From Sinohyriopsis cumingii (lineage: Eukaryota > Mollusca > Bivalvia > Unionida > Unionidae), in the NCBI GenBank assembly GCA_028554795.2, contig CM068826.1, forward strand, positions 103,895,102 through 103,959,101: a DNA stretch of 64,000 bases. The letters run 5' to 3'. Numbering within the stretch: position 1 is the first letter of the stretch; the number at the start of each line of letters is the position of its first letter. The notes below the pieces were generated by a model. It was not told the origin of the DNA. It did not search any database and was given only the letters and a program-made list of their open reading frames with translations. Position numbers and translations under genes: made by a program. Below are positions 45,721-63,109 of this stretch, piece by piece.

Positions 45721-45736
45721 GGCCCTGAAAAGGGCC
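45721..45736 (-). terminator. Histone-type 3' stem-loop (left TIR)
   Basis: Minus strand GGCCCTTTTCAGGGCC, preceded by CCAAA and followed by ACTCCA. A 6-bp stem with a TTTC loop fits the replication-dependent histone 3' stem-loop. It starts 29 nt after the stop codon of the gene at 45766. Confidence 0.85.
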
Positions 45737-45765
45737 TTTGGTTTCATCATCTTCTTCTTCTTCTT

Positions 45766-46348
45766 TTATTTCCTCCACTTCTTCCACCAAGTTCTCACTT
45801 TTTCCATCATTCCTTTCTTCTTCTTCTTCTCCTTCTCTGGCATCCAGTCTGGATGGCCCAATGCTCTGAACTTTTCCTGGACTTTTATCCAATTCTGATT
45901 GAGCCTCTCAAACTCTTCCTTTTTCTTTTTGTTTTCCTTATTCTTTCTTTCTTTACTCCATATCTCTTTTATCTTCAAGACTTCTTCCTCAATCACTTTT
46001 CTCATAAGATCTTCCGCTTTCTTCATCTTGTCCATCCCTACTTTTACGTTCCTCCACTCCGTCCAGTACAATATGTTTTCTAGGAAGCACCGGACTTCGA
46101 TGACATGATCCAGTGCTTCCTTCAAACTTCCCACTCTGACATAAGGTGGGTCAATCACTTCTCTCAATCTCTTTTCTTCCTCTTCCATCGTTCCTTGTAC
46201 TATCTCTTTAGCTACCTTTAGACCATTAGCATAGTCCAGGCACTCTTATCTTCCATTCTTTCTCTGTCTTTTCCATGACATAGGTAACATCCACTATCCA
46301 ATAATAGATGCCTATCAAACGATTTAACAGCTCCGTCGCAGCCACCAT
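45766..46348 (-). pseudogene. Unknown charged coiled-coil protein, left terminal gene
   Basis: The ATG at 46348 (context GAAGATGG) opens MVAATELLNRLIGIYYWIVD; the frame stops near 46230 and, after a one-base shift, continues as the 140-residue frame 45766-46188 (EEEEKRLREVIDPPYVRVGS, then LDHVIEVRCFLENILYWTEW). The C-terminal half is a Lys/Glu-rich likely coiled coil ending in VRTWWKKWRK. No family recognised. A TATA box at 46401-46410 lies 53-62 nt upstream and a histone-type stem-loop follows the stop. It reads outward into the left TIR. Confidence 0.6.
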
Positions 46349-46400
46349 CTTCCTTGTCTTTATTCCGTAGAATGGTGCGAACGACTAATGCTGTAAGTTC

Positions 46401-46410
46401 TTATATAAAA
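46401..46410 (-). promoter_or_regulatory. TATA box of left terminal gene
   Basis: Minus strand TTTTATATAA, 53-62 nt before the ATG at 46348. Confidence 0.6.
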
Positions 46411-46456
46411 AGCGCGGACGTGAAGGAAAACATCCCCTACTTTTGTCATCTTATAT

Positions 46457-46645
46457 TATCTACTATCCACACTAACGTAATGAGACAGCAAAAACAACCA
46501 TAATCTACTATCCACACACGTAAAGCAGCAAAAAACATAACCCAAATATACTATCCACACACGCTAAGCAGCAAAACCAAACGCAAATCTACTATCCACA
46601 CACGCCAAGCAGCAAAAATATAAACATAATTTACTATCCCCACAT
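46457..46645. repeat. Tandem array, about 42-bp unit, 5 copies
   Basis: Copies of CTACTATCCACACACG plus AAGCAGCAAAAACATAA-type spacer, followed by a (CA)n tract at 46664-46730. Lies between the left terminal gene and the capsid block. Spacers are not unique, so this is not a CRISPR array. Confidence 0.9.
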
Positions 46646-46669
46646 ATGTACTTGAGCGCTTACAATCAC

Positions 46670-46704
<35 letters not shown>

Positions 46705-46797
46705 CACACATATATATAAACACATACAATCACACCATGAAAGGAGTGAATGTTTATAATCACACTACTCCACATTCACACATTGGCAAATTGATTA

Positions 46798-47166
46798 CTA
46801 TTTCTTTTCTAGAGTTTTGGTTAGCCCTGAAAAGGACTGGCGTTTTTTTTTTTTTGAACTCCAGATGCACTGGCACCTTACTGGTCTGGCACCGCACACG
46901 CATCTCCGACTCCAGTCTCCTTGCCAATTCACACTTGTCACTGGGAGCGCAGAGGCAGGTTGAGTGGCTTCACTATTCCAATCTTCTGTCTCTGGAATAG
47001 TGAAGACTTCCCTTTCTCTTCTTCTTCTATTTATAACTCTAGGATGAATTGGCATCCTTCCCTCCTGTAGTGGTTTTGGCTGTGCTGCAGCTACAGGCTG
47101 TGGTGCTGCTATTGCCTGTACAGGCGTCCTTGCCTCAGGTGTCACCTTGCACACAGGGTTCATCAT
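46798..47166 (-). CDS. Basic Ala/Pro-rich protein downstream of MCP (3' end uncertain)
   Basis: Begins ATGATG at 47166, overlapping the last 32 bases of the capsid gene in another frame. About 100 residues: Ala/Pro/Gln-rich (PVQAIAAPQPVAAAQPKP), then basic (RRRREREVF) and Cys-containing (RRCVCGARPVRCQC). A run of 13 A residues at 46843-46855 lies before the end, so the C-terminus is uncertain, and the stem-loop at 46823 falls within the nominal 3' part of the frame. Unknown; possibly a small virion or DNA-binding protein. Confidence 0.4.
   Translation of the reverse strand: MMNPVCKVTPEARTPVQAIAAPQPVAAAQPKPLQEGRMPIHPRVINRRRREREVFTIPETEDWNSEATQPASALPVTSVNWQGDWSRRCVCGARPVRCQCIWSSKKKKRQSFSGLTKTLEKK
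46801..46814 (-). promoter_or_regulatory. Histone downstream element-like purine block
   Basis: Minus strand CTCTAGAAAAGAAA about 9 nt past the stem-loop at 46823, matching the CTCGAAAAGA-type block after the other stem-loops. Confidence 0.5.
46823..46838 (-). terminator. Histone-type 3' stem-loop variant (end of capsid block)
   Basis: Minus strand AGTCCTTTTCAGGGCT: six pairs including one G-T, loop TTTC, followed by AACCAAAA. It diverges from the other three at the stem base but keeps loop, TTTTCAGGGC core and spacing. Probably ends the major-capsid-side transcript. Confidence 0.6.
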
Positions 47167-61985: not shown

Positions 61986-61997
61986 CTCTTTTCGAGA
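61986..61997 (-). promoter_or_regulatory. Histone downstream element-like purine block
   Basis: Minus strand CTCGAAAAGAG starts about 10 nt beyond the stem-loop at 62007. Confidence 0.6.
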
Positions 61998-62006
61998 GAC
62001 ATGGGT

Positions 62007-62022
62007 GGCCCTGAAAAGGGCC
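62007..62022 (-). terminator. Histone-type 3' stem-loop after coiled-coil gene
   Basis: Minus strand GGCCCTTTTCAGGGCC flanked by CCCAAA and ACCCA, the best match in the window to the histone mRNA consensus including both flanks. It begins 31 nt after the stop codon of the gene at 62054. Confidence 0.9.
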
Positions 62023-62053
62023 TTTGGGTCTTGATGGGTTTTAAACAACAAAC

Positions 62054-62620
62054 TTAGGAAGCAATCAACTTTAACTGTCTTAAGCCTTTGCCACGGCCAA
62101 GTCCTACTTCTGGACTGCGTACTGTCGATGATGATGATTTGGTAGAAATTATTAAGGGCGATATGGTAGATGTTGTAACAGGGTTGGATTGTTTAGCTCG
62201 GGAAGGTCTTTTTCTCTTCGGTCGTAATAAAGAAGTCCGATACATTTGTTTCAGACTTTTTAACTCTGCTAAAATGTCTAACAGTACCGTAACGGTTTGA
62301 CTTTCACCTTCTTGTTTCTTGGCTGCTTCTTCTTGTTGTTTCTTTCTTACCTCTTCTTCTTGCTGTTGTAGGAGAAAAGCTTGTTCCGCTTCCTTTGGCT
62401 GTTGTATAAATTTATCCAATTCTTCTTTCTGTCTCTGTTTAAAATTCTCCACGTGTGGTAAAGAAGGAGAAGGTGGCGAAGGTACTGCTTCAGGAACAAA
62501 TTCTTGCGAAAGAAAATCCACAAAATCCCAATTCACCTCTTCTGGAAGTAAGTCCGGGTTCACTTGGGTAGTCTCCACGTTCGGTGCACCCCAATTCATT
62601 GTCTTCTGAGTTTCCGTCAT
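62054..62620 (-). CDS. Coiled-coil, basic-tail protein near right end
   Basis: Start chosen at ATG 62620 (MTETQKTMNWGAPNVETTQV), because a TATA-like CCTATACAG lies 51-60 nt upstream; the frame is open to 62659. 188 aa: acidic N-terminus (EEVNWDFVDFLSQEFVPEAV), Pro/Ser linker, Gln/Glu/Lys coiled coil (EEEVRKKQQEEAAKKQE), a helical stretch (TVLLDILAELKSLKQM), basic PKRKRPSRAK (likely nuclear signal) and a Ser/Thr tail. Intact. Unknown function. Followed by the best histone-type stem-loop. Confidence 0.6.
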   Translation of the reverse strand: MTETQKTMNWGAPNVETTQVNPDLLPEEVNWDFVDFLSQEFVPEAVPSPPSPSLPHVENFKQRQKEELDKFIQQPKEAEQAFLLQQQEEEVRKKQQEEAAKKQEGESQTVTVLLDILAELKSLKQMYRTSLLRPKRKRPSRAKQSNPVTTSTISPLIISTKSSSSTVRSPEVGLGRGKGLRQLKLIAS

Positions 62621-62791
62621 GTTTATGCCCACGGTGTCACATGGAATGACTGCGCACAAACACTAGTGTCTCTGTATAGGGAATGTGACGTCACGGACTG
62701 CTCTTTTCCGATTGGACGAATGGTGACTGAATTTTGTAACGCGTGTTTGGATTGGTCAATCAACTCAATCCGTTTCTATCCTCCCTCTCCC

Positions 62792-62798
62792 TATAAAT
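62792..62798 (+). promoter_or_regulatory. TATA box of right terminal gene
   Basis: TATAAAT in CTCCCTATAAATACTCGC, 36-42 nt upstream of ATG 62834. Confidence 0.7.
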
Positions 62799-62833
62799 AC
62801 TCGCAGTTCGCTGCATTCCTTCACCTGTTCAAG

Positions 62834-63046
62834 ATGTGGACCGACGTGGAATCCTCTACTCTTGTGTCTTCAATGATGTTTAGAACGGACTTACCCATGT
62901 ACGTCCGATCTACGTGGACTATTGTCAAGATGACGGGTACCTGTGTGTGGAAAAGAAGAATCTACGTAGAAAGACAAGGTTGTTTTAAGAGAGTGATGAT
63001 CTACGGTCCAGAATTAAGACAGTTTAAGGACAAGAAGGAGACCTAA
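62834..63046 (+). CDS. Right terminal small basic protein
   Basis: Start set at ATG 62834 by the TATA box at 62792 (the frame is open further upstream). 70 aa: MWTDVESSTLVSSMMFRTDL, then basic and aromatic (TWTIVKMTGTCVWKRRIYVE, CFKRVMIYGP). Intact. It reads outward into the right TIR and is followed by a stem-loop 48 nt past its TAA. Unknown function. Confidence 0.6.
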   Translation: MWTDVESSTLVSSMMFRTDLPMYVRSTWTIVKMTGTCVWKRRIYVERQGCFKRVMIYGPELRQFKDKKET

Positions 63047-63093
63047 GCGGTGCCCTCTATGTTAACAGTATGGTATGTTAACATAAAACCAAA

Positions 63094-63109
63094 GGCCCTT
63101 TTCAGGGCC
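63094..63109 (+). terminator. Histone-type 3' stem-loop (right TIR)
   Basis: GGCCCTTTTCAGGGCC, preceded by CCAAA and followed by ACTCCA. Same hairpin as 45721 because it is in the TIR. It starts 48 nt after the stop of the gene at 62834. Confidence 0.88.

Follow-up and report, generated by a model that had tools for sequence, protein, structure and literature searches.

Metazoan histone mRNAs form a unique class of messages without a poly(A) tail, as stated in the available part of PMC12775136. In animal histone genes, SLBP binds a stem-loop, the 5′ end of U7 small nuclear RNA (snRNA) pairs downstream of it, and CPSF73 cuts between the two, according to the accessible portions of PMC7026596 and PMC9756948; the former gives the core of the histone downstream element (HDE) in mouse H2a as AAAGAG, with CUCUUU in U7, and places the cut between stem-loop and HDE. 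Adintoviruses, in the portion of PMC11071296 at hand, are defined by PolB, hexon and an integrase with a chromodomain. Here, we describe element 2, which its sequence identifies as a Polinton/adintovirus-type element, in a stretch of 64,000 nt from the bivalve Sinohyriopsis cumingii (contig CM068826.1, positions 103,895,102 to 103,959,101; the whole stretch is referred to as the window). Element 2 has histone-like 3′ signals at three independent sites; two are good, one is weak, and all have a U7-type motif downstream.

The original prediction had named four histone-type stem-loops in element 2, and all four lie at the positions and on the strands that it gave (Table 1). They amount to only three independent sites, as 45721 and 63094 are two copies of a single sequence, one in either terminal inverted repeat. 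The 6-bp stem and TTTC loop recur throughout, although 46823 is without the CCAAA and ACC flanks. At 62007 and in the terminal-repeat copies, the 6-bp stem, 4-nt loop, A-rich 5′ flank and AC-type 3′ flank of the RF00032 (Rfam Histone3) consensus are all present, so that three of the four copies share the stem, TTTC loop, CCAAA 5′ flank and AC 3′ flank of a metazoan replication-dependent histone 3′ end. All four hairpins are sense-oriented behind genes, as had been claimed, yet 46823 follows no clear stop: it sits inside the open reading frame (ORF) 46798-47178, 22 nt before the stop codon of that frame (46798-46800), and approximately 300 nt beyond the probable capsid stop at 47135. The long minus-strand cluster terminates near this stem-loop. 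The three outer transcription units, those of the leftmost gene, the 62054 gene and the rightmost small ORF, each have a stem-loop at their end, 29-48 nt beyond the stop, again like metazoan histone messages, and the predicted distances of 29 nt (45766 to 45736), 31 nt (62054 to 62022) and 48 nt (63046 to the stem start) are confirmed.

Downstream of the stems, the layout is constant. AAAAGA, which the original prediction overlooked, starts exactly at +15 in all four copies, and a CA ends at +5 or +6 in all four; a CA and a purine-rich motif at these places are shared with the metazoan histone 3′ end. The exact AAAGAG core occurs only at 62007, where the downstream sequence reads AAAAGAGA; this core is that of mouse H2a and may not be the host's. 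The combination of stem, CA and AAAAGA or AAAGAG is found four times in the window (three of them independent), whereas 200 first-order Markov simulations average 0.015 and never contain more than one; the HDE and CA criteria of these simulations were fixed after the sites had been seen, AAAGAG and the CA site being the published ones. Counted on both strands of the element, AAAAGA occurs at 0.00115 per position, which puts the rough chance of three sites sharing one position at 2.7e-8, a value somewhat too small because AAAAGA is commoner on the minus strand (31 versus 11). With an HDE-like motif and CA at every copy, histone-type 3′ processing is thus supported more strongly than the original prediction argued.

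Covariance scoring of the four hairpins, the check proposed at the outset, gives a graded result against the RF00032 gathering score of 34. The 62007 site (61982-62027) exceeds it with 37.9 bits (E 1.6e-07 for 64 kb and all families), whereas each terminal-repeat copy stays 0.3 bit below it at 33.7 bits (E 6e-06) and 46823 is weak. RF00032 is the sole family of 4227 listed at E<=1 for 62007 and the terminal repeats. When the hairpin pattern is searched with up to three mismatches, exactly four matches are found in the window, compared to a mean of 0.15 in 100 dinucleotide-preserving shuffles, none of which reaches four. A covariance model trained on the three distinct sequences recovers the four sites, its own training material, at 69.8-74.8 bits, and nowhere else in the window does its score exceed 12.3 bits. 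The predicted fold of 62007 is clearly better than that of its shuffles (z -3.3).

Comparison of the three sites shows that they resemble one another at the signal and are dissimilar away from it. Between pairs of sites, the stem-loop is 81-100% identical and AAAAGA 100%; identity falls to 50-64% in the spacer and to 33-67% in the nine bases preceding the stem and in the interval +21 to +32, and it is 0.25-0.36, approximately background, in the outer flanks (-100 to -10 and +33 to +160). The terminal-repeat site and 62007 have an unbroken match of 23 nt in common. A recent segmental duplication would have brought its flanks along, and the unlike flanks therefore argue against one. At 46823, the first stem pair is altered on both sides, from G-C to A-U, and the third is U-G, such that pairing is kept; from three sequences, this is at most suggestive.

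Prokaryotic look-alikes lack the downstream motif. Searching viral_contigs for the 21-base hairpin pattern gave no match, and genome_contigs, which holds 257 Gb of prokaryotic contigs, gave 26. None of these 26 is followed by an HDE-like motif within 40 nt, and all 16 prokaryotic look-alike loci that were scored stay below the gathering score of RF00032. With the model derived from the three sites, none of the 29 fetched loci scores above 20.7 bits. Three viral contigs with a hairpin-plus-AAAAGA pattern (L027-L029) were rejected: in all three the pattern is the same stretch within a coding frame, the contigs are phage-like by eye, and Rfam yields nothing for them at E<=1. A histone-stem-loop-like hairpin repeat without an HDE, AAAGGTTCTTTTCAGAACCACCATCGTTAGCACATTACC, is common to two Gastranaerophilales metagenome-assembled genomes (MAGs; L007, L009, L010), and the copies in L009 and L010 were discarded as histone ends, the nearby ORFs not being histone-like by eye.

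For all its likeness to metazoan histone 3′ ends, the signal differs from them in that the genes of the element are transposon or virus genes, in that one site is weak in consensus, and in that the terminal-repeat signal serves two genes. Histone families are absent from the 20 element ORFs searched with Pfam, the stem-loop-bearing ones included. As such, the signal works like a histone gene end yet is not one, two of its three sites fitting by structure and layout and one lying above the curated score.

On balance, we consider it probable that the three sites are working histone-type 3′ ends in the lineage of the element. The hairpin, the CA, the AAAAGA and the lack of other likeness among the sites favor this reading, which the original prediction had proposed, while its reach is narrowed to three sites, with a weak 46823 and an AATAAA at the leftmost stop. 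Besides the late-fixed criteria of the simulation noted above, several observations weigh against it. The terminal-repeat copies miss the gathering score, 46823 has only 12.4 bits, and when its 56-nt stretch is folded, the hairpin is absent from the minimum-energy structure. For the terminal-repeat stretches, the advantage in folding over shuffled sequence is slight (z -1.3 and -1.7), and the AAAAGA of 62007 can itself fold into a second predicted hairpin (TCTCTCGAAAAGAGA, 61976-62031). Covariation over the three sequences comes to one pair and is unremarkable (163 of 500 shuffles do as well). The sequence also offers possible ordinary poly(A) signals: the AATAAA mentioned, a CATAAA 36 nt past stop 63046 and before the stem, and an ATTAAA 93 nt past stop 62054. 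Finally, there is a single copy of the element, and its reading frames are broken. AATAAA is missing from the sense strand of 46839-61370 (0 versus 6.0 expected; none of 300 simulations); since the sister hexamer AAATAA is likewise missing from the central cluster and three ATTAAA remain, this depletion is nonspecific and carries little weight. The second hairpin of 61976-62031 is partly repeated in the terminal-repeat copies.

An unlikely alternative is that a captured host histone 3′ end reached its three places through recombination or gene conversion and is perhaps inert or a backup to polyadenylation. Polinton-like viruses (PLVs) capture host rRNA sequences, judged likely not functional in the available part of PMC12220804, and a captured end would be in keeping with the unbroken match between the terminal-repeat site and 62007 and with the AATAAA over the leftmost stop and the CATAAA and ATTAAA near two other sites. 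Yet the stem-loop and AAAAGA are the parts most alike, and the divergence of spacer (50-64%) and flanks (25-36%) around them fits selection on the signal; nor is a histone family found among the searched ORFs.

That the terminal inverted repeats hold two of the four copies could instead suggest a DNA-level signal, such as a replication, integrase or packaging site, that resembles a histone hairpin by accident. We hold this to be improbable, as two of the three independent sites are internal, all four copies are sense-oriented downstream of genes, and a one-sided AAAAGA at fixed spacing suits RNA processing better than a palindromic DNA site. A different RNA role for the hairpin, in mRNA stability, nuclear retention or another kind of hairpin-dependent termination without SLBP and U7, would accommodate both the second hairpin over AAAAGA at 62007 and the departure of 46823 from the histone consensus, but is likewise improbable given that RF00032 alone is listed for 62007 and the terminal repeats and that loop, stem, CCAAA and AC flanks all match. 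Chance resemblance might account for 46823, unconvincing by itself, and is scarcely credible for the set when no shuffle in 100 yields four hairpins, the E values are 1.6e-07 and 6e-06, and 0.015 combinations are expected.

If the sites are indeed working histone-type 3′ ends, at least two and probably three transcription units of element 2 (four with both terminal repeats counted) would end by histone-type 3′ processing. We infer that, in the nucleus, host SLBP would bind the stem-loop, that the U7 small nuclear ribonucleoprotein would pair with the AAAAGA 15 nt downstream, and that cleavage by CPSF73 would follow the CA located 5-6 nt beyond the stem; the message would then have the stem-loop at its 3′ end and no poly(A) tail. 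As both terminal inverted repeats contain a copy, the two outermost genes would receive an identical 3′ end. In animals, regulation of SLBP ties histone messages to S phase; more speculatively, the messages of the element may be coupled to S phase as well. A tentative and rather doubtful extension is that an entire lineage of animal Polintons/adintoviruses swapped polyadenylation for histone-type processing of its main transcription units, with one signal shared by the outermost genes via the terminal repeats, thereby linking viral gene expression to host S phase and possibly to histone locus bodies.

Judged by its termini and gene content, element 2 is a degenerate Polinton/adintovirus-type element of 18,316 bp (45148-63463). 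Like animal Polinton/Maverick elements and adintoviruses, it has a length of approximately 18 kb, terminal inverted repeats that start with AG (ends 5′-AG...CT-3′), an rve integrase with a chromodomain, a B-family polymerase, and capsid-like and ATPase-like ORFs, and its flanks TGGGTA (left) and TGGGGA (right) resemble a 6-bp target-site duplication in 5/6 positions. The inner arms of the terminal repeats (45668-45747 and 63083-63162) are 99% complementary; the outer parts (45148-45640 and 63236-63463) consist of variable tandem units and are of unequal length at the two ends. The 62054 gene shows clear conservation: its protein has 20 homologues, which lie on contigs of 925-2286 bases, and 16 of them align to at least 96% of the query at 59-77% identity. 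The ORF 48000-48509, which may encode a capsid protein, has no match in Pfam or PHROGs; its best match among solved structures, fibrinogen (E 0.096), is unconvincing, and the structure prediction of the capsid piece (mean pLDDT 53) was too poor and was left unused. Of the homologues listed, the few that carry an organism name are from animals, namely Apostichopus and Ladona for the integrase and Pinctada, Copidosoma and Brachionus for the capsid-like ORF, with the exception of one homologue of the latter labelled as a Methylomicrobium MAG. Searches of viral_contigs with the capsid-like ORF, the polymerase piece and alignments of the integrase, 62054 protein and capsid confirmed no relative, and the polymerase piece had no match among phage records.

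Table 1 Features of element 2, by position in the window.
Feature	Position	Strand	Details
Left terminal inverted repeat region	45148..45747		Outer variable tandem units; hairpin in inner part
AAAAGA, HDE-like	45701..45706	-	15 nt after stem 45721
Histone-type stem-loop, left terminal-repeat copy	45721..45736	-	RF00032 33.7 bits; 29 nt past stop 45766
AATAAA, possible ordinary poly(A) signal	45765..45770	-	Overlaps stop codon of leftmost gene, 28 nt before stem
Leftmost gene, open frame ending at left terminal-repeat stem-loop	45766..46245	-	No Pfam family above cut-off
AAAAGA, HDE-like	46803..46808	-	15 nt after stem 46823
Variant stem-loop, downstream of capsid-gene end of minus-strand cluster	46823..46838	-	First pair A-U, not G-C; third pair U-G; RF00032 12.4 bits
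Capsid-like ORF	48000..48509	-	65 homologues, one named animal homologue 'F54H12.2-like'
Integrase C-terminal piece and chromodomain	50292..50930	-	PF00385 2.3e-06
rve integrase piece	50861..51436	-	PF00665 2.1e-14; homologues found
P-loop ATPase piece, weak Pox_A32-like	53913..54485	-	17.2 bits versus cut-off 22.8; 25 matches listed, all below curated cut-offs
B-family DNA polymerase pieces, two (shifted) frames	58305..60206	-	PF03175 3.6e-12 and 1.7e-07
AAAAGA(G), HDE-like, with published AAAGAG core	61987..61992	-	15 nt after stem 62007
Histone-type stem-loop, then ACCCA	62007..62022	-	RF00032 37.9 bits; 31 nt past stop 62054
Conserved gene ending at stem-loop 62007	62054..62623	-	20 homologues in public data
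Small ORF, approximately 70 aa, behind TATAAATA box, ending at right terminal-repeat stem-loop	62833..63046	+	
Right terminal inverted repeat region	63083..63463		
Histone-type stem-loop, right terminal-repeat copy	63094..63109	+	RF00032 33.7 bits; starts 48 nt past 63046
AAAAGA, HDE-like	63124..63129	+	15 nt after stem 63094

The window holds another AT-rich, virus-like element at approximately 8165-23929, with inverted repeats of approximately 155 bp (91%), an A32-like ATPase ORF (PF04665, 3.4e-11) and a double-jelly-roll capsid domain (PF21738, 5e-08). The histone-type signal is not common to it: Histone3 is not matched in this element at E<=1, and with the model built from the sites no score there exceeds 12.3 bits. 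The translation of its ORF 8787-9524 contains YCGPG and HDVAY stretches that, to our eye, recall viral phospholipase A2. A tandem repeat of ATTTCTCAGGCATTGATGTTC-like units (23857-24490) adjoins its right end.

Among the literature matches listed, none describes mRNA ends of the histone type for Polintons or adintoviruses, as the original prediction had supposed; its claim to novelty is nonetheless narrowed by six Histone3 matches at the gathering score already counted in PLV and virophage genomes, a bare count from a 2025 scan of 8300 PLV genomes (PMC12220804, in the part available). That paper deals with protist PLVs, and the accessible text gives the number of matches with no position, HDE or function. 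An RF00032 prediction in SARS-CoV-2, described in the available part of PMC7786107, has 14.7 bits, far under 34, lies within the coding sequence of an RNA virus, and shares only the Rfam family name with the sites described here. In the portion of PMC5799277 at hand, histone is mentioned in a reference only.

If the signals of element 2 work as proposed, they would provide a direct means of timing viral genes to DNA replication. To our knowledge, the SLBP/U7 pathway is usually taken to serve histone mRNAs alone, and its use by a DNA transposon or virus would widen the list of its clients. Transcripts of this kind would be missed by poly(A)-selected RNA sequencing, which could partly hide the activity of Polintons.

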